This document shows positions 11,443-25,285 of a stretch of DNA of 41,181 bases, in pieces; position 1 is the stretch's first letter; every line of letters begins with the position of its first letter. Under the pieces are notes generated by a model. The model saw only the letters and a list, made by a program, of their open reading frames with translations, was not told the DNA's origin and ran no database searches. The translations under genes were made by a program, and so were the position numbers. This DNA is from a bacterium (GTDB lineage Bacteria > Planctomycetota > JADGBV01): NCBI GenBank assembly GCA_023261545.1, contig JAHFOS010000018.1, positions 1-41,181 on the forward strand, written 5' to 3'.

Positions 11443-11470
11443 TTGACGGCCAGTGAGATCCCCGTATACT
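11443..11470 (+). promoter_or_regulatory. Sigma-70-type promoter of the TPR-ExbB-ExbD operon
   Basis: TTGACG at 11443-11448 and TATACT at 11465-11470 are separated by 16 bases. A start near 11477 leaves a leader of about 20 bases before the TTG start codon at 11498. Confidence 0.6.
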
Positions 11471-11497
11471 CGCGGCGCTTTGTTGGCGGTCAAAGGA

Positions 11498-14400
11498 TTG
11501 ATCTACCTCGGGAAGAAGTGCGCCTCGGCGGCGGTGTTCTGGCTCATGGCTTTCACGCTTTCCTTGAGCGCTCAAACGCCCGAGGATCTCTACGATGGCG
11601 CCACGCTGCTCTTCAATAACGAGGAGTACGATCTCGCCGGCGCCGAGTACCGCAAAGTGCTGGCCGCCGCCTCCGGCAATAGCGACCTCGAGGGGCGCTG
11701 TGCTTTCCAGGTGGCCGAGTGCGCGTTCCAGCTCAAGCAGTATGAGGCCGCAGAGGAAGCCTTCCGCGCCTACCTGAAGCAGCACGCCGGTCACGGCAAA
11801 CACGCGGAAGGCCAGTTCCGCCTTTCCGAGAGCTGCTATTTCCTCAAGGATTTCGACGCCGCGGAAAAGAATTACGAGCGCTTCCTCGAGGAAAATCCCA
11901 AGCACGAGCTGGTTCCACTCGCCCTGTATGCCGCCGCCAGCGCCGCCCTCGAGGTCGGGCGTTTCGGGCCCGCCCGCGAGCGCTTCGCCAAACTGGTGGC
12001 AGAGTATCCGCAACATCCCAAGGCCGAGGAGGCGCTGTTCAACATCGGCTGGGTGAGCCTGCGCGAGCAGAAGTTCGCCGAGGCGCAAAAGGCGTTCCTC
12101 GATTTTTCCCAAAGCCACCCGCGCTCAAAGCTGCGGCCCGAGGCCTTGCTCAGAGCCGGGGACGCCGCCTTTCGCGCCGAGGGTTACGCCGCCGCCCTGC
12201 AGCACTACAACCAAGTGCTCTCCGATGGGGAAGGCGCCTTCGAGCGCGACGCCCACCAGGGCATCGCCTGGAGCTATTTCAAGCTCAAGGAGTACGAGAA
12301 GGCCGCCATTGGTTTCCTGAAACTCGCCCGCGTCCATAAAGAGGCCGAACCGCGCGCCCTGGCCTACTTCCAGGCGGTGCAGTCTTTTTACAACGCCGGG
12401 AAGCATGAGGAGGGGCTCCAGGCCGCGGACCGGCTCATCCAGGAGAGTCCCAAGAGCCCGCTGGTCGCGGACGCCTGGTATTGGAAGGGCGTGTTCCTGC
12501 GCGCCCTCGACAAGGGGGGCGAGGCCGCCGAGGCCTTCAACAAAGCGCTGGCGGCCGGCACCACCAAGACCACCTCCGCGGAGGTCCGCCAGGAACTCGC
12601 CGGGGTGTACTCGGCCAACAAGGAGTACGCCAAGGCCACCGCGGCGCTCGAACAGGCGCGGGCCGAGGCCAAGGAAGGCCGGGGGCTCAACCAGGTGCTC
12701 TATGATCTGGCGCGCAACTACCACCTCGCGGGGGAGGGCCAGAAAGCGGTGGCGACCAGCGAGGAGCTTCTGAAAACAGCCGGCGCCGATCCCGCCACGC
12801 TGCTGCTCACGCGTTTCAACCTGGGCGAGTACCTTTTTGCCCTCAAGGAATACGCGCGCGCCATGCCTTCCTACCAGACGGTGCTCGACGACAAGGAGAC
12901 CAGCGCGGACCTTCGGGCTGACGCCGCTTACCGCATGGGCTGGTGCCTGAAACTCCTCGGCAAACCCGAGCCGGCGCTAAAGGTTTTCGGAGCCATGGAC
13001 CTTTCCGAAAAAAGTCGCTACGGGCGCGAGGTGCGCTTCCTGATGGCCGGTCTCGAGGAAGTGATGAACCACCTGGACAAGGCGGAAGCCGGCTACCGCG
13101 AACTGCTTTCGAGCCGCGGCCCTTTCACGGCGGATGCCTACCTCGCCATCGCCCAACTGCTTTTCAAGGCCAAGCGCCACGGGGACCTCATCGCCCTGCT
13201 CGACGAGTTCCTGAAGGGGTTCCCGGGCCATGAGCGCGAAGCCAGCGCCCACTACCTGTTGGCCGAGGCGGCCTACGAAAGCGCGCAGCCCGAACTCGCC
13301 CTCGACCATTACACCCGGGCCATCGCACTGAAGGATCCCGCCGCGCGCGAGCGCGCCCTCTACGGACGCGCCTGGCTGTACTACAAGCGCGAGCGGCCGG
13401 CGGAGGCGATGGCGGACATCGAGGCGCTGTTCCAGGAATTTCCGCAGAGCAGCTTCAAGCTCTCCGCCCTGCAGCTCCAGGGCAGCCTGTTGCGCGCGCG
13501 CGGCGAGCCGGCGAAAGCCAAGGTGGTTTATGAAAAGGGCCTGGCCGCGGCCAAGCCTGAAGAGCGCGAGGAGCTGCTGTTGAGCCTGGCCGGCACCGAG
13601 GTGGACCTCAAGAATTTTCCGGCGGCGCTGGAATTCTACAGCCGCTTCATCCAGGAGTATCCGGCCAGCCGCCAGCTCGGGAGGGCTATCTACGAGAAGG
13701 GCTGGCTGCTGATGCAGATGGAGCGGCCCGAGGAAGCGGGGGCGGCTTTCCGCCTCTACGCCAAGAACTTCGAGAAGGGCGAGCTCATCTCCGACGCCGA
13801 GTTCGCGCTGGGGGAACTCGCCTATGGGCGCAAGGAGTACCGCCAGGCGCTGGAGCGTTACGCCGCCTGCCTCGGGGACGAGCGCTACAAGGATAAGGCG
13901 CTCTACAAGCTGGGGTGGAGCCATCACAGCCTCAACCAGTACGCCGAAGCGGCCGCGCACTTCGGCAGGCTGGTGGCGGAGTGTCCGGCCTCCGTCCTCA
14001 AGCTCGAATCCATGTATCGCCAGGGTCTGGCCGAACTCATGGGCGCGCGCTTCGACAAAGCCGCAGCGGCCCTTGAGGGCTACATGAAAACCGCCACGCG
14101 CTCCGACGCCTTCTACGGGGATTCGCTCATCAACCTGGCGCGCATGTACGAGAAGCTGGCCAAACCCGACCTGGCGCGCGCCCGCTACGAGGATTACCTG
14201 GGCATGTTCCCGGAAGGGACCGAGCGCACCGAAGCCGAATACAGCGTGGGTCGGTTGCACCTTGAGGCGCGCGAGTACGCCAAGGCCGCTGAACGCTTCG
14301 AGCGCGCGAGCGCCGACAAGACGCACCCGCGCGCGCTGGAGGCGCTGTTCTTCCTCGGCGAGTCCTGGTTCCAACTGGGGAAACACGATGAGGCCGTGAA

Positions 14401-14596
14401 GGCGTACTTGAAGACCCTGCTCTACAAGGACGGGAAAGTCTGGCAGGCGCGCAGCCTGTACCGCATCGCCCAAAGCTACACGGCCCAGGCCAAGTCCGAC
14501 AAGGCCGCGAAATACCTGCGCAAACTGGTGGACGAATTCCCCGACACCGAGGAAGCCAAAAAGGCCGCCTCCGAGCTGGCCCAAGCAGAAAAATGA
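11498..14596 (+). CDS. Large exported tetratricopeptide-repeat protein
   Basis: About 1032 residues, almost wholly TPR units of the TolA-binding/YbgF and BamD kind, with recurrent A-x-F-x-x-G-x-x-Y/F-x-x-A-x-x-x-Y/F patterns and the linking motif EYP/EFPxS (for example LVAEYPQHPKAEEALFNIGW). The N-terminus (LGKK, then ASAAVFWLMAFTLSLSAQ) reads as a signal peptide when translation begins at TTG 11498, which directly follows AAAGGA; ATG 11546 is the alternative. It overlaps the exbB-like gene by ATGA. Together with ExbB and ExbD this suggests a periplasmic scaffold coupled to a proton-driven inner-membrane motor, analogous to but much longer than the CpoB/YbgF partner of TolQRA. No TolB or Pal is in the window. 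Confidence 0.85.
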   Translation: MIYLGKKCASAAVFWLMAFTLSLSAQTPEDLYDGATLLFNNEEYDLAGAEYRKVLAAASGNSDLEGRCAFQVAECAFQLKQYEAAEEAFRAYLKQHAGHGKHAEGQFRLSESCYFLKDFDAAEKNYERFLEENPKHELVPLALYAAASAALEVGRFGPARERFAKLVAEYPQHPKAEEALFNIGWVSLREQKFAEAQKAFLDFSQSHPRSKLRPEALLRAGDAAFRAEGYAAALQHYNQVLSDGEGAFERDAHQGIAWSYFKLKEYEKAAIGFLKLARVHKEAEPRALAYFQAVQSFYNAGKHEEGLQAADRLIQESPKSPLVADAWYWKGVFLRALDKGGEAAEAFNKALAAGTTKTTSAEVRQELAGVYSANKEYAKATAALEQARAEAKEGRGLNQVLYDLARNYHLAGEGQKAVATSEELLKTAGADPATLLLTRFNLGEYLFALKEYARAMPSYQTVLDDKETSADLRADAAYRMGWCLKLLGKPEPALKVFGAMDLSEKSRYGREVRFLMAGLEEVMNHLDKAEAGYRELLSSRGPFTADAYLAIAQLLFKAKRHGDLIALLDEFLKGFPGHEREASAHYLLAEAAYESAQPELALDHYTRAIALKDPAARERALYGRAWLYYKRERPAEAMADIEALFQEFPQSSFKLSALQLQGSLLRARGEPAKAKVVYEKGLAAAKPEEREELLLSLAGTEVDLKNFPAALEFYSRFIQEYPASRQLGRAIYEKGWLLMQMERPEEAGAAFRLYAKNFEKGELISDAEFALGELAYGRKEYRQALERYAACLGDERYKDKALYKLGWSHHSLNQYAEAAAHFGRLVAECPASVLKLESMYRQGLAELMGARFDKAAAALEGYMKTATRSDAFYGDSLINLARMYEKLAKPDLARARYEDYLGMFPEGTERTEAEYSVGRLHLEAREYAKAAERFERASADKTHPRALEALFFLGESWFQLGKHDEAVKAYLKTLLYKDGKVWQARSLYRIAQSYTAQAKSDKAAKYLRKLVDEFPDTEEAKKAASELAQAEK

Positions 14597-15360
14597 TAAC
14601 CCACATCTTTTGTTCCCCCATCCTAAAGTCCTCCGCGCGCGGCGCGCTGGCCTGGGCGGGTCTTGCCGCAGCCGCCAGTGCCGTCGAGGTGAACGGGACT
14701 TCGCAATCGCTCATCATCAAGGGGTCGTTCTGGGACATCTTCGCCAGCGGCGGGCCGGTCATGTATCCGCTGCTCTTGTGCTCGCTGGTGGCCATGGCTT
14801 ACGCCCTGGAGCGCTTCATGGCCTTGCGCCGCGCGAAGATCATCCCCGAAGAACTGCGCGGCGCCCTGGAGGCCGCGCTGGAGAAAGTGCCCGATGGCGC
14901 GGGGCGCGTCGCCTTGGCCGGCCGCTTCAAAGGGGGCGCCACCCCAGGGGAAAAGCTCGTGGCGCGCTTCCTCATCCGGCAGGATTACGACAACGCCCGC
15001 GATATGGAGCAAATCCTCCAGGAGTACACGGATGCGATGCTCTATGAACTGCACCGCAACATCAAGCCGCTGGCGGTGATCACCCAGGCCAGCCCGCTGC
15101 TCGGCCTGCTCGGCTCGGTGCATGGCATGATCCTGGCTTTCAATGCCGTGGGCGTGCATGGCTTCGGCAAGCCCGAGATCCTGGCCAACGGCATGGCCAC
15201 GGCCCTGTTCACCACTTTTTTCGGCCTCGCCATCGCCATCCCGTCCGCCTTTTTCCACCATCACCTGAAGGAGAAGGCCACGCGCCTCGCTCTGGACCTC
15301 TACAACACCGTGCATGAACTCGGGCTGGCGCTGGTGGCGGCCAGCAAAGGGCGCGGGTGA
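14593..15360 (+). CDS. MotA/TolQ/ExbB proton-channel family protein
   Basis: A 255-residue inner-membrane protein. An N-terminal hydrophobic stretch (13-31) may be a signal peptide or extra helix. The three family helices lie near 55-75 (PVMYPLLLCSLVAMAYALERF), 158-183 (with the conserved ASPLLGLLGSVHGMILAF) and 199-222 (GMATALFTTFFGLAIAIPSAF). ExbB/TolQ pentamers form the proton-motive stator around an ExbD/TolR dimer. It starts at ATG 14593 overlapping the TPR stop, and its stop overlaps the exbD-like GTG start by GTGA, so the three genes are one translationally coupled unit. Confidence 0.9.
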   Translation: MITHIFCSPILKSSARGALAWAGLAAAASAVEVNGTSQSLIIKGSFWDIFASGGPVMYPLLLCSLVAMAYALERFMALRRAKIIPEELRGALEAALEKVPDGAGRVALAGRFKGGATPGEKLVARFLIRQDYDNARDMEQILQEYTDAMLYELHRNIKPLAVITQASPLLGLLGSVHGMILAFNAVGVHGFGKPEILANGMATALFTTFFGLAIAIPSAFFHHHLKEKATRLALDLYNTVHELGLALVAASKGRG

Positions 15361-15776
15361 AGCTGCTCAAACAGTCCATCGGCGAAGAGGCGGTGGTTCC
15401 CTTGATGACCCCGCTCATTGATATATTCCTGCTCATCATCTTTTTCCTGCTCACCTGCACCTTCGCGAGCGGTGAGAAGGAGAAGGAGCTCACCATCCAC
15501 CTTCCGGCCACCAAGGGCGGATCGCGCGGGGTGGAGGGGATGCGCTGGTATTTCAACGTGATGGAGACGGGAGCCGTCGTGCTCCAGGGCCGCACGGTCA
15601 CCCTCAAGGAGGTGGACGGCCTGCTGGAGGCCGAACACGAACGCCGCGACGGCATCTACCTCATCGTGCGCGCCCACGAGAACGTCCCTTACCGCATGGT
15701 GGCCAAACTCATGGGCCTTTTCAGCCGCCACGGCTTCGCGCGCGTGGCCTTCCAGACCATTGACGAGAAGGAATGA
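15357..15776 (+). CDS. ExbD/TolR-family protein
   Basis: A 139-residue protein with a single N-terminal transmembrane helix (about 14-34, VPLMTPLIDIFLLIIFFLLTC) holding the conserved proton-carrying aspartate D22. A periplasmic domain follows (ELTIHLPATKGG, then DGIYLIVRAHENVPYRMVAKLM and FARVAFQT). It forms the rotor or plug dimer inside the ExbB pentamer. Starting at GTG 15357, it overlaps the previous stop. With the TPR protein upstream it forms a motor-plus-scaffold set whose partner at the outer membrane is unknown; the TonB encoded at 29191 is a possible user. Confidence 0.9.
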   Translation: MKLLKQSIGEEAVVPLMTPLIDIFLLIIFFLLTCTFASGEKEKELTIHLPATKGGSRGVEGMRWYFNVMETGAVVLQGRTVTLKEVDGLLEAEHERRDGIYLIVRAHENVPYRMVAKLMGLFSRHGFARVAFQTIDEKE

Positions 15777-15848: not shown

Positions 15849-16139
15849 ATGAGCGATCAACAACTGGATCTACGCCTCGCCGCGCAGGTGGCCCACCTGA
15901 GTCGCATCGCCGTCGCCGGCGAGCGGCTGGAGGAGGCCGCCCAGCGTTTCACGGGGGTCCTTGAAGCCTTCCGCGTGATCCAGACCCTCGAGCCACCCGA
16001 GGCGGGGGAGGCGGCGCAGCCGCTCGGCAGGGCGGATTTGCGGGCCGACGGCCCCGCGTCATCCTTCGGGGCGGACCGGGCGCTCGCCAACGCGCCCCAG
16101 TCGCACCGCGGCCATTTTCGCGTGCCGCCGGTCCTCTGA
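15849..16139 (+). CDS. gatC: Aspartyl/glutamyl-tRNA amidotransferase subunit C
   Basis: A 96-residue protein with the GatC pattern: an N-terminal helix (LRLAAQVAHLSRIAVAGERL), an acidic and proline-containing middle, and the diagnostic C-terminus ALANAPQSHRGHFRVPPVL. GatC stabilises the GatA-GatB complex that converts Glu-tRNA(Gln) and Asp-tRNA(Asn) to their amides. Neither gatA nor gatB lies next to it. Its stop overlaps the ATG of the FapA-like gene (TGATG at 16137-16141). The separation from gatA/gatB may reflect genome rearrangement. A GluRS gene at 37215 could supply the mischarged tRNA. Confidence 0.85.
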   Translation: MSDQQLDLRLAAQVAHLSRIAVAGERLEEAAQRFTGVLEAFRVIQTLEPPEAGEAAQPLGRADLRADGPASSFGADRALANAPQSHRGHFRVPPVL

Positions 16140-17578
16140 TGCCTGAAGGCGCCAAGCTCGTTCGCGAGGAGAACCTGGGGGATTTGCACCTGCGGCTCTA
16201 TATCAGCGACGATCAGTGCGAAGCCTCTTTCCAATTCAAGCGCATCGATCCCGGCTGCACCGTGGCCCCCGATTTCCTGAAGAAGATGATCGTTGACGCC
16301 GGAGTCGTGAACGGCATGGACGAGAACCGGGTCATGGAGCTCGCCGAGGCCTGCTGCGCGGGTTCCTTGAAGGCGTCGGAGGAATTGGTGAGCGTCGCGC
16401 GCGGCAAGCGGGCCGTCCAGGGCACGGACGGTCGCGTCGAATTCCTGATCAAGCCCAGCGCCGAGAACGTGCGCTTCAACGTGACCAAGGATGAGGCCAT
16501 TGATTACAAGAACACCAACCTCATCCAGAACGTGCTCAAGGAGCAGCACCTCGCCACCGTGCATCAGCCGGGAGCCGCCGAAGAAGGCCGCGATCTCTTC
16601 GGCAATGCCATTCCGACCCGGGCGGGCCAGCCCGTGGAGGTGCACCTCGGCCCCAATGCGGTGATGGAGGACGGCAAGATCTACTCCCAGGTGAACGGCC
16701 GTTTCGTCCTCGAAAACGATATCCTCAGCGTCAACCCCGTCTACCAGGTGCGCGGCGACGTGGACTACACCGTCGGCAACGTCAACTTCATCGGCCTGGT
16801 GCAGATCCAGAAGGACGTCCTCGACGATTTCAGCGTTTTCGGCAAGGAGGGGGTGGAGGTGAACGGCGTGATGGGCGCCGCCAACGTGGAAAGCGAGGGC
16901 CACGTCACCGTGAACGGCGGCGTGAATGGCAAGGGACGCGGTTACATCCGCGCCCTGGGCGCGGTGCGCGCCAAATACTTCAACGAGGTGAGCGCCGTCT
17001 GCCGTGAGGACGTGGAGGTAGCCAAGAGCATCATGAACAGCACGGTGAAAACCAAGGGCAAGCTGATCTGCCCCATGGGCAACGTCATCGGCGGGTCGGT
17101 GGTGGCCCTCATGGGCATTGACGTGGGCAGCGTGGGGTCGGACCTCGGGGTGGAGACCTCCATCACGGCCGGGGTGGACTACGAGATAGCCGACAAGATA
17201 GCCACCTACGAGGCGCAGATCGATGAAATTACGCGCGAGATCGAGCGCATTGATCGCGTCGTCGGCCCGGTCCTCGCCAACAAGCAGAAGCTGATGGCGC
17301 TGAGCCCCGACAAGAAAAAGGCCCTGAAGGGCCTGCTCGAACAATTGAAGAAGCACCAGGCGGAGCAGGGGGAGATGCAGAAGAACCTCGACGAGATCCG
17401 CAAGCAGAGCGTGGGGCAGCGCGCCAAGGAGATCCTGGTGCGCAAAATGCTCTACAGCGGCGTCAAGGTGTGCATCGGCCACTGCCGCAGGCTCATCAAG
17501 ATGGAGGTGCGCGGTCCCATCCGCCTGCGCGAGGACGCCGAGAACGAGACCATCTCCATCGCCAACCTTCAAGGCTAG
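16139..17578 (+). CDS. FapA/DUF342 family protein
   Basis: A 479-residue protein of the DUF342 (flagellar assembly protein A) family. After an N-terminal region with a GxxVxxGDxL-poor variant (GRDLFGNAIPTRAGQPVEVH), a long right-handed beta-helix-like domain occupies about 195-360: PVYQVRGDVDYTVGNVNFIG, DVLDDFSVFGKEGVEVNGVM, GHVTVNGGVNGKG and SIMNSTVKTKGKL. A coiled coil follows (about 355-420, YEAQIDEITREIERIDR). Family members act in flagellar or pilus placement and in bactofilin-like scaffolding; no flagellar gene is present here, so a role with the pilus-type ATPase directly downstream (4 bases away) is more likely. Confidence 0.88.
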   Translation: MPEGAKLVREENLGDLHLRLYISDDQCEASFQFKRIDPGCTVAPDFLKKMIVDAGVVNGMDENRVMELAEACCAGSLKASEELVSVARGKRAVQGTDGRVEFLIKPSAENVRFNVTKDEAIDYKNTNLIQNVLKEQHLATVHQPGAAEEGRDLFGNAIPTRAGQPVEVHLGPNAVMEDGKIYSQVNGRFVLENDILSVNPVYQVRGDVDYTVGNVNFIGLVQIQKDVLDDFSVFGKEGVEVNGVMGAANVESEGHVTVNGGVNGKGRGYIRALGAVRAKYFNEVSAVCREDVEVAKSIMNSTVKTKGKLICPMGNVIGGSVVALMGIDVGSVGSDLGVETSITAGVDYEIADKIATYEAQIDEITREIERIDRVVGPVLANKQKLMALSPDKKKALKGLLEQLKKHQAEQGEMQKNLDEIRKQSVGQRAKEILVRKMLYSGVKVCIGHCRRLIKMEVRGPIRLREDAENETISIANLQG

Positions 17579-17582
17579 GCGC

Positions 17583-19277
17583 GTGGCGGGCATCGGCGAC
17601 AACCTGGGGTCCATCCTGCTGGAGCTCAAATGGGTCAAGAGGTCCCAGCTCGACGTGGCCCTGAAGCAGATCTCCGAGGGCGCCAGCGAACGGCTGGGAC
17701 AGATCCTTTTAAAGTCCCAAGCCATCACCGAGCAGCAGCTCGCCCAGGCCTTGGCCATCCAGAATGGCCTGGAGTACGTTGAGGGCGCGGCGCTGAGCTC
17801 CACCCCCGAGGCGGTGGAAAAGGTGTCCTTGGAATTCGCCAAGCAACGCCACGCGCTGCCGCTCGACGTCAAGGACGGCGTGCTGACGGTGGCCATCGAG
17901 GATCCCCTGGACCTCAGCCTCGTGGACGACCTGCGCTTCATGACGAACCTCCAGGTGCTCTGCAAGGTGGGCGGCCAGAGCGAGCTCATGGCGGCCATTG
18001 ACCGCAGCTACGAGGGTGCCACGCGCTCCATGGAGAAACTCATCAGCGAGGTGGCCCACGACGTGGAAGTGGTGCTGGATACGGAGGGCGCGGAAGGTGA
18101 CGGTGATGAGGACGCTCCGGTGATAAAACTGGTGCACCTCATCATCACCCGGGCGGTGCAGCAGCGCGCCAGCGACATCCACGTCGAGGCTCTGGAGAAG
18201 AGCCTGCGCGTGCGCTACCGCATTGACGGCGAATGCGTGCTGGCCGACAGCCCGCCGAAGAAATTGCAGGGGTCCTTCTACGGACGCCTCAAGATGATGG
18301 CGGGGATGGACATCGCGGAACGACGCAAACCCCAGGACGGGGCCATCAAAATAAAGGTGCTGGGGAGGCTCATTGATTTGCGCGTGAGCTCCCTGCCCTC
18401 CTCTTTCGGGGAAAGCATCGTCATGCGTATCCTCGACAAGCAGTCGGTGCTGAAGGGCATGAACCAGTTGGGGTTCCATCCCACCGATTACGCCTCCTTC
18501 AAGGACCTCATCGCCCGCCCCAACGGCATCGTCCTGGTGACCGGCCCCACCGGCAGCGGCAAGACCACCACGCTCTACGCCGCGCTGGGCGAGAAGAACA
18601 AGCCCAACGTCAAAATCATCACCGCCGAGAACCCCGTGGAGTACAACGTCTCGGGCATCAACCAGATCCAGGTCAACCACGAAATCGGGCTGGACTTCGC
18701 GCGCATCCTGCGCGCCATGCTGCGCCAGGCGCCCAACGTCATCCTGGTGGGCGAGATCCGCGACCTGGAAACCGCCACTATCGCCATCGAAGCCTCGCTC
18801 ACCGGCCACCTGGTCTTTTCCACGCTGCACACCAACGACGCCCCCTCCACCATCACGCGCCTCATTGATATGGGCATCAAGCCCTACCTCGTCAGCAGCT
18901 CGGTCATCGCCGTGCTGGCGCAGCGGCTGGTGCGCGTGAATTGCGAGCAGTGCCGGGAAATCTATAACCCGGACCCCGCCAAGATGCTGGCCGCCGGCAT
19001 CACCCCGGAGATGGCCGAGGGCAAGACCTTCGTGCGCGGGGCCGGTTGCCAGAACTGCAACAACACGGGCTATCGCGGGCGCCTCGGCATCTATGAGCTC
19101 ATGCGGCTCGGCCACGAGCTGCGTGACGCCATCTTCCACAACAAGCCCACCCACGTCCTGCGCGAGCTGGCCGTCAAGGGTGGCATGCACACCCTGCTCA
19201 TGGACGGGGTGCGCAAGGTCTTCGCCGGGCTCACCACCGTGGAAGAGGTTTTAGGAGTCGCCAAGAGCTTAGAATAG
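17583..19277 (+). CDS. GspE/PilB-type secretion or pilus assembly ATPase
   Basis: A 564-residue hexameric ATPase. It has an N-terminal MshEN-like domain (9-140, LGSILLELKWVKRSQLDVAL and a LGQILL repeat), the N2 segment ASDIHVEALEKSLRVRYRIDG, Walker A GPTGSGKT (321-328), the Asp box, Walker B VILVGEIRD (386-394), the His box TGHLVFSTLHTNDA, and a C4 zinc module (C454, C457, C489, C492). All catalytic motifs are intact. It starts at GTG 17583, 4 bases after the FapA-like stop. No pilC/gspF, pilT or pilM/N/O gene is nearby, so it must work with proteins encoded elsewhere or with the membrane proteins downstream. Confidence 0.92.
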   Translation: MAGIGDNLGSILLELKWVKRSQLDVALKQISEGASERLGQILLKSQAITEQQLAQALAIQNGLEYVEGAALSSTPEAVEKVSLEFAKQRHALPLDVKDGVLTVAIEDPLDLSLVDDLRFMTNLQVLCKVGGQSELMAAIDRSYEGATRSMEKLISEVAHDVEVVLDTEGAEGDGDEDAPVIKLVHLIITRAVQQRASDIHVEALEKSLRVRYRIDGECVLADSPPKKLQGSFYGRLKMMAGMDIAERRKPQDGAIKIKVLGRLIDLRVSSLPSSFGESIVMRILDKQSVLKGMNQLGFHPTDYASFKDLIARPNGIVLVTGPTGSGKTTTLYAALGEKNKPNVKIITAENPVEYNVSGINQIQVNHEIGLDFARILRAMLRQAPNVILVGEIRDLETATIAIEASLTGHLVFSTLHTNDAPSTITRLIDMGIKPYLVSSSVIAVLAQRLVRVNCEQCREIYNPDPAKMLAAGITPEMAEGKTFVRGAGCQNCNNTGYRGRLGIYELMRLGHELRDAIFHNKPTHVLRELAVKGGMHTLLMDGVRKVFAGLTTVEEVLGVAKSLE

Positions 19278-19283
19278 CCCGCC

Positions 19284-20357
19284 ATGACCAACAACGTCTA
19301 CGTCTATATCATCATCCTTTTCGGGCTCCTGGGGTCTATGAGCAGCCTGCTCTGCTACAACCTCTCCAAGGAAGCCCAGGAGAAGCTTGAAAGCAACCGC
19401 GTGGATATGAAGGGCGTCGAGGCCCGGGCCAACGACTTGACGACGAAGCTCAAGACGCTCGGCGAAAAACAGAGCGAGCGCATCAAGCTGCGCAATGAGA
19501 GCCGTGTCCTCGCCTCCTCTATCCTGGCCGCGGATCGCGAGCTCAAACGCGCCAGCCTGCACCGCGGCTGGTATGAGCGCGGGGTGGAGTTCCATGCCGC
19601 GCGATCCGATCGATTGAGCGGCCAGGTGGCGAGCGTCCAGGATGCCATGCGCGAGGAGATCTCCAACGTCGAGCGCACCCAGCAGGAAATGGAAACCTAC
19701 TACAAGAGCGCCGGCGAGGACATGGGGCACCGCATGGACGGGCTCAAGCACCGCGAGGAGGAGAACCTCAAGACCAAGACCTTCGAGACGGCCAAGATCG
19801 AGTCCGAGGTCAAGAACTACGAGATCAAGATCAACCGCGAGCACCAGGTGGTTTACAACCGCTTCGCCACGCCGGAAGGCGTGGGACGGATCCTGGAAGT
19901 GCTGCACGGCGAGCACAAGATAATCCTCGACGTCGGCTCGGCGGCGGGCGTCAAGCAGAACTTCAAGTTCAAGGTTTTTAACCTGGCTCCCGACGGCGAG
20001 GTGGTGGACAAGGGCTTTGCCGTGGTGAAGTCCGTGAGCGACATGTACGCGGTGGCCGCCCTGCTTTACGACGACCCCAAGCGTGAGCCGGTGTTGCCGG
20101 GCGACCGGGTGGGGAGTCCCGCCTACACCCAGGGGGGGCGCCGCTTTTTCCTCGCGGGAAAGTTCGACACCAAGTTCAACAAGGCCCAGCTCACGTCCTA
20201 CCTGCAGTACATGGGCAATCTAGTGGTGGAGGAGTTGAGCCCCTCCGTGGACATGGTGGTGGAGGGCAAGTTCTCGGAAATGCAGGTGGCGCAGGCCGCC
20301 ACCATGGGTATCCTCATCATACGTGAAGACCAACTGGTGCCTTTCCTCGGAGACTGA
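19284..20357 (+). CDS. Membrane-anchored coiled-coil protein with a C-terminal BRCT-like domain
   Basis: A 357-residue protein with four regions. Residues 7-27 form a transmembrane anchor (VYIIILFGLLGSMSSLLCY). Residues 28-190 form a long charged coiled coil. Residues 198-282 form a small beta domain (GRILEVLHGEHKIILDVGSA, then a GDRVG ending) that resembles FlgT C-terminal-like domains. Residues 286-357 form a BRCT-like domain: RFFLAGKFDTKFNKAQL, YMGNLVVEELSPSVDMVVEG, then a helix and MGILIIREDQLVPFLG. The typical GG pair is GN here, so this copy is more diverged than the next gene's. It begins 6 bases after the ATPase stop and abuts the next gene (TGATGA). BRCT domains usually bind DNA ends or phosphopeptides in the cytosol; a membrane-linked one is unusual. 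Function unknown. Confidence 0.7.
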   Translation: MTNNVYVYIIILFGLLGSMSSLLCYNLSKEAQEKLESNRVDMKGVEARANDLTTKLKTLGEKQSERIKLRNESRVLASSILAADRELKRASLHRGWYERGVEFHAARSDRLSGQVASVQDAMREEISNVERTQQEMETYYKSAGEDMGHRMDGLKHREEENLKTKTFETAKIESEVKNYEIKINREHQVVYNRFATPEGVGRILEVLHGEHKIILDVGSAAGVKQNFKFKVFNLAPDGEVVDKGFAVVKSVSDMYAVAALLYDDPKREPVLPGDRVGSPAYTQGGRRFFLAGKFDTKFNKAQLTSYLQYMGNLVVEELSPSVDMVVEGKFSEMQVAQAATMGILIIREDQLVPFLGD

Positions 20358-21871
20358 TGAACGCGAGCTCCATCTTCGAACGCGCCAATTTCTACTACTT
20401 TGGCAGGCGCGCTTATCCCGCCATCCTCATCGGGGTGGTGCTGACCGCTATTTTCGCGGTGGGGGGGATCCTGGCGGCCATAGCTTCCTGGTCCTGGAAA
20501 ACCAACATGGATGAGACGCAGCGCGCCATAGCGGAGCTCAAATTCAATATAGACCGCGAGATATTCGGTACCGATCTGGAGATCGCCAGGCAAGGCGTGA
20601 GCGATTACCTGCGCGACCGGCCCGCGGTGGACGCCGAGGACAAGTTCAACGTCAAGCTGGGGAAGGAGGCGCGCTTCAATGCGGACCAGCGCGTGGCGTT
20701 GCTGCGCAAACTGCGCCGTCTCCAGGGCGATGCCGCCAAGACGGCGACGGAAGAAATGCTGCGCGAATTCCAAATCGAAGAGGGGGTGGAGGACAAAATA
20801 GCCCGCGAGGACGCGCTCATCAATTTCTTGAAGGGGTTCATCGGCGGGGCGCCCGAGCTGGCTCAGTTGTTCGAGGCGAGCAAAAGGGATCGCGACCTCA
20901 TTCCTCCGGAGGTGCTGGTCCTCATGGAACGGGCGCCCGAGCTGGCCGGCGGCGCCAAGGCGTTGCTGCAATCCCGGGTGGATGCCCTGCGCAACGAGCG
21001 CGGCCAGAACACCGAACTCACCACCCGCTTCGATGGCGCCGTCGCCGGGGCCTTCGAAAATTTCGAAAAGCGCAACACCACCTTCAAGGACCTCAAGGGC
21101 AACCTCCTGGAGAAGCGCACCGGCTACGAAAGCAGCTTCTGGTCTAAAATGGACGAGCAGCGCAAGCAATGGACCGGATACTTGCAGGCCTCGGTGGACC
21201 ACATCGCCAACGTCACCGGGCGCCAAAACCACATTGACGAGCTGCTCAGGGAAAAGGAACAGCTCAAGCGCATCCTGGACGCTCGCAGCGGTGAGGGACA
21301 AGGCTGGCTGCCCATCCTCGACCTCATTGACGGGCGGGTGCTCTCCGCTAATCCCGAACTAGGGTTCGCCGTCATTGATATCGGCCGCGAAGACGGCCTC
21401 CGCATCGGGCAGGGTTTCGACGTCTTCCGCATGAAGGGTGAGGCGCGGCAAGAAACCAAGGGGCGGCTGGAGGTCCAGTTCCTTGAGGATCGCATCAGCA
21501 TCTGCAAGATAACCGCCCGCGAATCCCTGAACCCCATCGCGGCGGGGGACAGCGTGGCCAATGCCCGCCAGGACACGCCCTTCGACCGCAAGGTGCGGCC
21601 CCAGTACGCCCTGCGCGGCCGCTTCCCGGAGTTCCCCTCGCGCGCGCTGGTGACGGCGATGATCGAAAGCTCGGGAGGGAAGGTGGTGAATGACCTGAGC
21701 GAACGCACGAATTTCCTGGTCACCGGCGACGACGTGAAACAAGAGGAAATCTCATTGAGCAAACAACTGGGCCTGCGCGTCATCCGCACCGCGGACATGA
21801 TGCAGCATCTCGGCATGGCCCTGGAAGACGTGCGCAGGATTGAGGAGAGGACATGGAAATTCGATCAATGA
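20357..21871 (+). CDS. Membrane-anchored coiled-coil protein with a clear BRCT-like domain
   Basis: A 504-residue protein with the same plan as its upstream neighbour. Residues 21-45 are transmembrane (PAILIGVVLTAIFAVGGILA), with R9, R17 and R18 on the N-terminal side, which predicts an extracytoplasmic C-terminus. Residues 50-310 are helical and rich in charge. Residues 316-402 form a FlgT-C-like beta domain (DGRVLSANPELGFAVIDIGR, then AAGDSV). Residues 415-487 are BRCT-like, with YALRGRFPEF, IESSGGKVVNDLSERTNFLV and LGLRVIRTADMMQHLGM. The GGK and T-x-F-L-V motifs match DNA-ligase-type BRCT repeats well. It starts at ATG 20357, overlapping the previous stop by one base, and overlaps the next gene by 19 bases. 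Probably a structural partner of the upstream protein. Confidence 0.75.
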   Translation: MNASSIFERANFYYFGRRAYPAILIGVVLTAIFAVGGILAAIASWSWKTNMDETQRAIAELKFNIDREIFGTDLEIARQGVSDYLRDRPAVDAEDKFNVKLGKEARFNADQRVALLRKLRRLQGDAAKTATEEMLREFQIEEGVEDKIAREDALINFLKGFIGGAPELAQLFEASKRDRDLIPPEVLVLMERAPELAGGAKALLQSRVDALRNERGQNTELTTRFDGAVAGAFENFEKRNTTFKDLKGNLLEKRTGYESSFWSKMDEQRKQWTGYLQASVDHIANVTGRQNHIDELLREKEQLKRILDARSGEGQGWLPILDLIDGRVLSANPELGFAVIDIGREDGLRIGQGFDVFRMKGEARQETKGRLEVQFLEDRISICKITARESLNPIAAGDSVANARQDTPFDRKVRPQYALRGRFPEFPSRALVTAMIESSGGKVVNDLSERTNFLVTGDDVKQEEISLSKQLGLRVIRTADMMQHLGMALEDVRRIEERTWKFDQ

Positions 21872-23103
21872 ACGGGGTCCCGAGTCGAGTCCGCTGTAGG
21901 GCGGCGTTGGTGGGAGCGCTCCTCGCTTGGGCCGGAATCCAGGGCGAAGAACCCGCCGTGCGCGTGCAGTATTCCAACAACCGCCACCTGGTGGTCCAAT
22001 ACAAGGTGCGCGACTCCATGACCGAGGATAACGTCCTGCAGTCGCGGCTGTATTACACCCTGAACAGCGGCATCAGTTGGCGCTTCTATGGCCTCGACCC
22101 GGACGGGCGCAGTCCCATGGAGTTCCTCGCGGACAACGACGGTCTCTATGGCTTCAAGGTCGGCTCGGTGGACCGGGCCGGACACGAGGAATCCGCGCCG
22201 ACGGCGGGGACGCCGCCGGACATCCTCGTGCTGGTGGACACCGCCGCCCCTCGCGTGCGGCTCCTGAGCCCCGCGGCCGGAGAACTCTGGGAGGCTGGAA
22301 CAAGGCGCCTGCTGCGCTGGGAGGCCGAAGACGAGGCCCTGGAAGAGGGGAACTGCGTCACGCTTTACAGTTCCGCGGGAAGCGAGGGGAACTGGCATGA
22401 AATCGCCAGCGGCCTGCCGGCGCGCGGCCAGTTCGCCTGGACGGTTCCCGACTCCGAAAGCGGCGAAGTGTTCCTCAAGGTCAGGGTCATGGACCTCGCC
22501 CGCAACGCAGCGACGAGCGAGGGTGGCCGCTCCTTTTTCACGCGCAACGTCATGGAGGACCGCCTCTCACGCGAGGTGCGCGACCAGGCCAACCGTTATT
22601 ACGAGGCCGCCACCATCGCCCGCAAGAACGGCGATACCGGCAAGGCGGTGAAGTACTACCGGCTTTGCCTGGAGCTCAACCCCTACCTGGTGGGCGCGCA
22701 CAACGATCTCGCCCTCGCGCTCCTGGATGCCGGGGAGCCGGAGGAGGCCTTCGAGCATTTCGAACTGGGCCTCAAATACGCGCCCTCCCGGGAGCCCTTG
22801 CTGGCGAACCTCGCCGAGCTTTACCTCTCTTACGGCCAGACCGCGATGGCGCGCAAAGTGCTGCTGCGGCTCCTGCAGGTGAACCCCAAAAGTCCGGAGG
22901 GCCTGTGGCTAGCGGCCCGCGAGGCCGAGGCCAGCGGCGATCCCGAGCGCGCGCGCATCTATCTGAAGCGCCTGACGAACCTGGACTTCCCCGAGGGCTC
23001 CGCCGGACAGCGTATGGCCGCCGGCGCGTTGGAAGCTCTTGCGCGCGTCGAGGCGCAATCCAGCGGCGTGCATGCGTTGGCCATCCCCCAGGCGAGGCGC
23101 TAG
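21853..23103 (+). CDS. Exported Ig-like/TPR protein
   Basis: A 416-residue protein. A signal peptide (about 13-31, VRCRAALVGALLAWAGIQG) leads into two beta-sandwich-like regions (35-130 with YYTLNSGISWRFYGLDPDGR and YGFKVGSVDRAGHEES; 133-230 with VRLLSPAAGELWEAGTRR and FLKVRVMDLARNAATSEGG). The second resembles the Ser-Thr-rich GPI-anchored/Ig-like repeats found in surface proteins. Residues 240-380 are three to four TPRs (NRYYEAATIARKNGDTGKAV, LLDAGEPEEAFEHFELGLKY). It starts at ATG 21853, inside the end of the BRCT protein gene, after GAGGAGAGG. It completes the run starting at gatC, and its export supports an envelope site for the whole set. Confidence 0.75.
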   Translation: MEIRSMNGVPSRVRCRAALVGALLAWAGIQGEEPAVRVQYSNNRHLVVQYKVRDSMTEDNVLQSRLYYTLNSGISWRFYGLDPDGRSPMEFLADNDGLYGFKVGSVDRAGHEESAPTAGTPPDILVLVDTAAPRVRLLSPAAGELWEAGTRRLLRWEAEDEALEEGNCVTLYSSAGSEGNWHEIASGLPARGQFAWTVPDSESGEVFLKVRVMDLARNAATSEGGRSFFTRNVMEDRLSREVRDQANRYYEAATIARKNGDTGKAVKYYRLCLELNPYLVGAHNDLALALLDAGEPEEAFEHFELGLKYAPSREPLLANLAELYLSYGQTAMARKVLLRLLQVNPKSPEGLWLAAREAEASGDPERARIYLKRLTNLDFPEGSAGQRMAAGALEALARVEAQSSGVHALAIPQARR

Positions 23104-23348: not shown

Positions 23349-24218
23349 TTGCCCGTGCGCGGCCGCGTCAAATTCTTTTCCCGCAGCAAGGGTTACGGCT
23401 TTATCCTTGAGGAGGAAAGCGGTTTAGAGCGCTATTTCAACGACCACAACGTGAGCGGCGACCTTCCCCGCAAGGGAGAGCTCGTCGAGTTCGAGCCGGC
23501 GGAAAGCGAGGGCCACCCCCAGGCGGACAACGTGCGCGTGGTGGCCGAGAAGATGCCCACGCTCATCGAGTGCAAGGCTTGCGGGCAACTGTGCGTGCCG
23601 CGCATCTACCGGCGCCACGAGGCGCTCATGAGTCCCGCCACCGAGCACATCTGCCCGCTCTGCGGAGTGACCCTCTATGAAACGGGAGGGGGCTTCCAGC
23701 CCGGGGTGCGCTGGGGGTTCTGGATCGTGCTTTGGAGCTTTGCCCTCATGATGGTGGACCATTTTTGCCTCAACCGCATCTTCAACCCGGACTTCTTCAG
23801 CCGTGAGAATTTTTTCGTGGTACCCATGTTCAAGTTCATTCCCGGCGAGCTGCTGGCTTTTGCCCTGCCCATGGTCCTGCTGCCCCCGCTGCTCATCCTG
23901 GGACTGCGAAGCGCCGTCCTGGAGAGTGCCGCGCGCGCCCTCACGCACTCCTTGGCCTTCCTCGTAGCCCTGGCCTTCGTCCTCTATCTGCAGACGGGAG
24001 GGAAAATCGCCAACGCCGCTGACGTCAACACCAATTTCCTGTGGGCGGCCTTCAACGCCTTCTTCCTGTGGATCGTGGTGGACCCCTTCTTTCGCGCGGG
24101 CGACTTCATCGCAGACCGCTTGCGGCAACGCCGCATCGGGGTTTCCCAGCGGGCGGCCCCGGCGGCGGTTTCGCCATCCCAGGAGGCGGGAAAGACGGAA
24201 AGCGCGGAAAAGCGCTGA
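23349..24218 (+). CDS. Cold-shock domain / zinc-ribbon / membrane fusion protein
   Basis: A 289-residue protein. Residues 3-66 form a cold-shock domain with RNP1-like KGYGFIL and RNP2-like RYFNDHNV motifs (binds single-stranded RNA or DNA). Residues 75-105 carry a zinc ribbon, C75-x2-C78 and C102-x2-C105, with C82 between. Residues 121-250 hold about four transmembrane helices (WGFWIVLWSFALMMV, ELLAFALPMVLLPPLLILGL, ALTHSLAFLVALAFVLYL, LWAAFNAFFLWIVV), and a short charged tail follows. Cold-shock domains fused to membrane DUF1294 proteins are known, but I do not see the DUF1294 signature here. The start may be TTG 23349 or GTG 23355; neither has a good ribosome site. It is monocistronic, right after repeat copy A. 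Confidence 0.75.
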   Translation: MPVRGRVKFFSRSKGYGFILEEESGLERYFNDHNVSGDLPRKGELVEFEPAESEGHPQADNVRVVAEKMPTLIECKACGQLCVPRIYRRHEALMSPATEHICPLCGVTLYETGGGFQPGVRWGFWIVLWSFALMMVDHFCLNRIFNPDFFSRENFFVVPMFKFIPGELLAFALPMVLLPPLLILGLRSAVLESAARALTHSLAFLVALAFVLYLQTGGKIANAADVNTNFLWAAFNAFFLWIVVDPFFRAGDFIADRLRQRRIGVSQRAAPAAVSPSQEAGKTESAEKR

Positions 24219-24541: not shown

Positions 24542-25285
24542 GTGAAAAAGCCAAGTTTCTTCACGCTCATCGAGCTGCTGGTGGTGATCGCCATCATCGC
24601 CATCCTCGCTGGGCTGCTCATGCCCGCCTTAGCCAAGGCGCGACTCGCCGCGAACCGCACCTCTTCGGACAACAACATGAAGCAGATCTCGGAGGGAGTG
24701 CTCATCGCCAATAACCCGGATCCGAAGTCAACGTTCGGGCAGGGATGGGACTACCCGATTGGAGTCCACACCGTCAATGGGGACGACGCGGCCATGAAGT
24801 ATCTTTTTGTCATCGGAGACCCCAGCGTTGCAGCGAACAAGATCAACGTGGGCCATACCAGTTGTTCTTCAGGAGCATCTGGCAACGCGGATGCGATCCA
24901 AAAGCGCTACCAGGTTTTCATTGACTACGCCGGCAAGCACCCCTTCGACGACCAGAAGGGATATTACTCTTACTACGGGGCCGTTAAAGTTGGCGCTGCG
25001 GCGGCCAATGCAACCCGCAAGGAAAAGTTCAGCACCACGGACCGTATCGTCGTCGAGAACTACCGCTTCGGCGCGAACTTCGACAAGGGTGACAGCCGCA
25101 TCGGCGTCTGCTTCGCGGACTCCCATGTGGCCAAGTTCTTGGTGGATGCGGGCAACGCTGATTCAACGACGGGCGCCGTTACGGAAGGCATGCTGTCAAT
25201 CCTCAATACGAGAAGGGTCATGTACCTGAAGGGTGAGGACGGAGCGCCCCTCAATGGGTTGTATCCTGCCACGCCGGCGGATTGA
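24542..25285 (+). CDS. Type II/IV pseudopilin with PVC-type N-terminus
   Basis: A 247-residue protein whose N-terminus is a prepilin signal: a short basic leader (KKPSF) then [18 protein letters not shown] and helix [16 protein letters not shown]11 is the conserved Glu5 of the mature pilin. The residue before the cleavage site is Phe rather than Gly. The C-terminal half carries [14 protein letters not shown], like the FADGHV segment of the pseudopilins numerous in Verrucomicrobiota and Lentisphaerota. It would be processed by a prepilin peptidase and may be assembled by a PilB/GspE-type ATPase such as the one at 17583. It has its own promoter and a strong terminator, so it is a single-gene unit and probably well expressed. 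Confidence 0.88.

Follow-up and report, generated by a model that had tools for sequence, protein, structure and literature searches.

The window (the whole stretch of DNA analysed, 41,181 nucleotides) carries two adjacent forward-strand genes, whose products we call BR1 and BR2, together with genes for a FapA scaffold, a pilus-type ATPase and a TPR protein. The features of this segment are as follows.

16139 to 17578, forward strand: FapA (DUF342 beta-solenoid) scaffold, from Pfam; same order in genome G001
17583 to 19277, forward strand: PilB/GspE-type ATPase with MshEN domain, from Pfam
19284 to 20357, forward strand: BR1, first family member, 357 aa, with transmembrane (TM) helix, charged helical stalk, FlgT-C-like domain and divergent BRCT, from the ORF, homology to BR2 and the model
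19296 to 19352, forward strand: BR1 predicted TM helix, residues 5-23, from a hydropathy scan
19881 to 20114, forward strand: BR1 FlgT-C/TsaP-like beta domain, about residues 200-277, from predicted strands and Foldseek matches to FlgT
20139 to 20354, forward strand: BR1 BRCT, residues 286-357, without the phosphate-pocket residues, from structure match and family alignment
20357 to 21871, forward strand: BR2, second family member, 504 aa, with TM helix, long charged helical stalk, FlgT-C-like domain and BRCT, from the ORF, Pfam BRCT and the model
20420 to 20476, forward strand: BR2 predicted TM helix, residues 22-40, after an Arg-rich N-terminus, from a hydropathy scan
21332 to 21562, forward strand: BR2 FlgT-C/TsaP-like beta domain, about residues 326-402, from the model, structure search and family profile
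21596 to 21814, forward strand: BR2 BRCT, residues 414-486, without the phosphate-pocket residues, from Pfam, structure match and family alignment
21853 to 23103, forward strand: TPR protein after BR2, from Pfam; conserved in genome G001

The adjacency to a pilus-type ATPase and to FapA, already noticed in a preliminary description of this DNA, was borne out by Pfam (T2SSE, E=7e-127; FapA, E=3e-56). All these genes lie on one strand, with 6 bp separating PilB from BR1, a one-base overlap between BR1 and BR2 and a 19-base overlap between BR2 and the TPR gene, and in this lineage BR1 and BR2 apparently belong to an operon with FapA, the PilB-type ATPase and the TPR protein. Just upstream (11453-15776), genes for a large TPR protein, ExbB and ExbD follow one another with 4-base overlaps and form an envelope operon energised by a proton channel, while a GatC-like gene (15849-16139; Pfam E=4e-6) overlaps the start of fapA by one base. 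Just downstream of the operon, a 289 aa protein (23349-24218) has an N-terminal cold-shock (CSD) domain (Pfam E=1.2e-6) and a C-terminal half resembling membrane helices, and is possibly a membrane-tethered nucleic-acid-binding protein; a 247 aa protein with a prepilin-like N-terminus and no Pfam match is encoded at 24542-25285.

BR1 and BR2 had been described as sharing a single plan, namely an N-terminal transmembrane helix, a charged helical region, a FlgT-C-like domain and a BRCT domain, and the TM scan, Pfam, the structure models and the mutual homology of the two proteins all agree with it. They retrieve each other in protein searches (E=7.8e-5 and 6.6e-5) and are, as judged by sequence, paralogues. 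In BR2, residues 423-478 match the Pfam BRCT model PF00533 (E=1e-5, 26.1 bits, with a curated cut-off of 21.3), and the GGK and TNFLV motifs attributed to it are indeed present. BR1 alone gave no BRCT match in single-sequence database searches, Pfam included; its residues 286-357, to which the preliminary description had assigned the domain, are aligned as BRCT by the family profile. The AlphaFold models of the two C-termini (ma554d6998e29 for BR2, m8171f0217943 for BR1), built with 10 sequences and reaching a mean pLDDT of 78 and 75 with a modest pTM of 0.50 and 0.48, both contain the four-stranded sheet with flanking helices typical of the BRCT fold, as had been anticipated, and their best PDB match in Foldseek was the RFC1 BRCT (E=3.4e-5 for BR1 and 9.7e-6 for BR2, rmsd 1.4 Å in either case). 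A profile of 37 relatives likewise matched the solved BRCT structures of LigA (3e-12) and RFC1 (7e-10) and, weakly and through its FlgT-like part, TsaP (0.006).

For the domain preceding the BRCT, the FlgT C-terminal model PF16538 scored 13.2 bits in the single protein (E=0.12), below its cut-off of 27, and was matched by 4/50 family members at E<=0.01. FlgT (3w1e) nevertheless ranked high among the structures matched by each model (E=6e-4 and 3e-4), the FlgT-containing LPHT ring was also retrieved, and the modelled beta domain of BR1 and BR2 has a FlgT-C-like fold. FlgT and TsaP are periplasmic envelope proteins.

Phosphate-binding BRCTs are characterised, in a 2023 review, by a Ser/Thr-Gly in the β1-α1 loop and a Lys at the start of α2 (PMC10386641). 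We aligned the BRCT segments of the family (76) with those of LigA from this phylum (10, of which nine are distinct, one LigA being counted twice via two overlapping loci). The Ser/Thr before the loop glycine occurs in 4/71 family members against 10/10 LigA segments, the helix-2 Lys in 3/75 against 10/10, and the helix-2 Ser before this Lys in 5/74 against 10/10. Ser/Thr and Lys are found together in no family member, the window proteins having A-G and R-G in the β1 loop, whereas in LigA all the contact residues compared are conserved. The family retains the structural core, with the β1-loop Gly in 70/71 segments, the GG-loop glycine in 67/76, D/N in 65/76, the Gly after β3 in 65/76 and the Ala of helix 2 in 66/75. 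By the criteria of that review (PMC10386641), the family BRCTs are not phosphate-dependent. With the phosphate-contact residues lost, binding of DNA ends or phosphopeptides by these domains is unlikely. Other BRCTs make phosphate-independent protein contacts, and the loss of the phosphate-binding residues from a preserved core indicates that the domain most likely serves as a protein-protein docking module rather than as a reader of DNA ends or phosphopeptides.

As regards topology, the charge bias around the TM helix in 71 members with a clear one predicted N-in/C-out in 54, N-out in 5 and a tie in 12, a count that may be skewed by acidic residues of the coiled coil following the TM. The bias is clear in BR2 and weak, near neutral, in BR1, which has no charge before its TM and whose own orientation is therefore ambiguous. 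Together with the FlgT/TsaP-type beta domain, the charge bias favours the periplasmic side, and the BRCT would probably lie outside the cytoplasm. The idea, put forward when the pair was first noticed, that it holds DNA or a phosphoprotein at the envelope is at odds with both the missing phosphate residues and this predicted orientation. A prepilin-type (class III) signal was also considered and dropped, as RG or KG precedes the TM in only 22/71 members and is absent from BR1 and BR2.

The family is common to most of the Planctomycetota genomes sampled: a loose protein search found relatives in 49/59 of them, and iterative profiling of 40 neighbourhoods plus the window gathered 53 proteins, most of which align all the way from the TM region through to the C-terminus. 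Pfam BRCT (E<=0.01) was detected in 38 of 50 aligned members. A profile scan of genome contigs returned 8 loci, of which six carry Planctomycetota in their titles and two the word bacterium only, and the same kind of scan found no relatives in viral contigs. A profile-based prevalence of 292/292 genomes was rejected as an overcount, since the end of the profile also picks up the BRCT of LigA itself; genomes with LigA and no family BRCT protein do exist (e.g., G048, G086, G186, G273), and in some families the LigA BRCT is the only one. The NCBIfam LigA model is conversely matched by 23/50 members, presumably through the BRCT alone, and automated annotation could therefore misname them as DNA ligases. 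Members occur singly or in adjacent pairs, 14 of which were in the tree set. The pairs do not form two clades in the tree, so that an ancient pair of first and second paralogues across the phylum was discarded, and the tandem pairs seem to go back to several separate events rather than to one shared duplication.

Gene order in the window is not the one usual in the family. In 35/60 inspected loci the family gene lies beside a divergently transcribed coaE-rho(-polA) set and/or a downstream tatC (coaE 30, rho 27, tatC 23, polA 15), and these conserved neighbours allow the gene to be located and deleted in cultured species. The order FapA-PilB-BR1-BR2-TPR was seen in the window and in G001 alone, which belongs to another genus and is the sole genome available from the same family; the BR2 proteins of the two are 31% identical. 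The association with the ATPase and FapA, on which the preliminary description had laid weight, thus does exist and is conserved within its lineage, but it is local and not the general context of the family, whose members across the 60 loci are almost never next to the ATPase. At nine other FapA loci, some on short contigs, no PilB was found within 5 kb, and the PilB of locus L151 was not counted as a neighbour, being 5 kb from the family member. In the window genome, coaE-rho lies on a different contig, which carries no family member. No T2SSF (PilC/GspF) gene was detected by Pfam in the window, and of the type IV pilus or type II secretion components sought (PilC/GspF, pilins, secretin) none accompanies the ATPase and FapA beside BR1/BR2; since a PilB-PilC pair (C261), a GspE-GspF pair (C147) and the secretins (C36) of this genome are encoded on other contigs, the window PilB is without its usual partner genes nearby.

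A third protein of the window genome, encoded on contig C202 (locus L164, 5797-6669) directly upstream of mreB, has the TM, the stalk and the same beta domain, and no BRCT. This sister protein, of about 290 aa and found by the family profile, precedes mreB in six genomes (the window genome and G031, G036, G040, G055 and G234; loci L164, L181, L182, L183, L185 and L186), and mreC follows mreB in the three loci checked by Pfam (L181, L182, L185). It is a candidate undescribed elongasome partner in Planctomycetota. Its position adjoining mreB places the wider family near the cell-shape machinery and raises the likelihood that the BRCT-bearing branch, too, acts in the envelope.

On balance, we lean towards reading these proteins as scaffolds of the planctomycete inner membrane, each with a periplasmic coiled coil and, at its tip, a repurposed BRCT. 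A short N-terminus would remain in the cytoplasm, a helical and probably coiled-coil stalk would extend into the periplasm carrying the FlgT-C/TsaP-like beta domain, and the BRCT-fold domain would sit at the tip, the whole anchoring an envelope assembly to the inner membrane on a plan comparable to that of MreC, with a beta domain comparable to those of periplasmic FlgT and TsaP. In this lineage the adjacent pair would probably be the periplasmic part of the envelope machine of the PilB-type ATPase. Against the scaffold stand the coaE, rho and polA neighbours outside this lineage, which are cytosolic nucleic-acid or metabolic genes, and against cooperation with PilB and FapA stands the restriction of that context to two genomes. 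A broader proposal, plausible though somewhat short of an even chance, is that the BRCT was exported: phylum-wide periplasmic scaffolds would have taken up a ligase-type BRCT, lost its phosphate pocket and come to dock envelope machinery, one lineage becoming tied to a FapA/PilB motor operon. One alternative is the opposite orientation, N-out and C-in, in which the BRCT would hold DNA, a repair factor or a BRCT protein such as LigA at the inner membrane. The resemblance to the BRCTs of LigA and RFC1, both binders of DNA ends, the presence of polA in 15 of the 60 loci, the five N-out members and the near-neutral bias of BR1 speak for such a tether, which we nonetheless consider improbable: the phosphate-pocket residues are gone from nearly all members and kept in every LigA compared, the charge bias runs 54 to 5 for C-out, the beta domain is of a periplasmic type, and polA, coaE and rho are divergent and lie outside the operon of the family gene.

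Two other alternatives are narrower versions of the scaffold reading; their likelihoods overlap with its own and should not be summed with it to one. The pair could serve, in the manner of TsaP, exclusively in a machine powered by the neighbouring PilB, either a type IV pilus or a type II secretion system, with its BRCT docking a secretin or pilus subunit. What might suggest this is the arrangement with PilB and FapA in two genera, all in one direction and with overlaps, and the TsaP/FlgT-type beta domain; with the PilB-PilC and GspE-GspF pairs and the secretins of the genome on other contigs and the family elsewhere in the phylum not next to PilB, this alternative has little probability. It is less doubtful, though still unlikely, that the family is a general cell-shape or envelope-integrity factor like MreC and the FapA/PilB link a gene-order accident in one family. 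The BRCT-less sister directly upstream of mreB(-mreC) and the ancestral-looking order next to tatC in many families would fit such a factor, but no BRCT-bearing member was found adjacent to mreB, and the FapA-PilB-BR1-BR2-TPR order has survived deep divergence inside its own family. Returning to the scaffold with a BRCT tip, the lost phosphate-binding residues and the probable extracytoplasmic location make the family look more like a structural component of the envelope than an anchor for DNA, in a phylum with unusual envelopes and many essential genes without known function (PMC10632474).

Among known systems, the BRCTs of LigA and RFC1 (PF00533) have the same fold and are the closest solved structures by both profile and structure, and the family keeps their GG motif and T-(D/N) core. 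It differs from them in being without the Ser/Thr-Gly loop, the helix-2 Lys and any enzyme domain, and in having the BRCT fused to a TM, a stalk and a beta domain, probably outside the cytoplasm. TsaP, consisting of a LysM and a FlgT-C-like domain, is a partner of the type IVa pilus secretin and is tied to a PilB-driven machine, while FlgT belongs to the Vibrio flagellar ring; both share the FlgT-C-like beta domain with BR1 and BR2, which are instead anchored by a TM helix and stalk and have a BRCT added. A Pfam scan found no LysM in BR1 or BR2, and no secretin is encoded nearby, those of the genome being on C36. MreC (PF04085) resembles the family in its TM, coiled stalk and distal beta domain, and the sister sits in the mreB(-mreC) neighbourhood; the family has a BRCT in addition, and the MreC core PF04085 gave no Pfam match in BR1, BR2 or the listed families of the 50 members, with single weak NCBIfam MreC matches only, whereas the true MreCs neighbouring the sister loci do match. 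The sister itself is alike in TM, stalk and beta domain and differs in its gene context and in having no BRCT. By the features tested, therefore, the proteins are not of the phosphate-binding BRCT class, nor TsaP, nor MreC. The searchable literature on membrane or periplasmic BRCTs yielded nothing relevant, in keeping with the initial view, which knew of no described system with such a set. In the 2023 review, the BRCT proteins usual in bacteria are listed as DNA ligase and DNA polymerase III epsilon alone, and a search of its text by terms turned up none from bacteria that is periplasmic or anchored in a membrane (PMC10386641). Set against that account, a membrane-anchored family widespread in its phylum and bearing a disarmed BRCT would add a third kind to the bacterial BRCT proteins.
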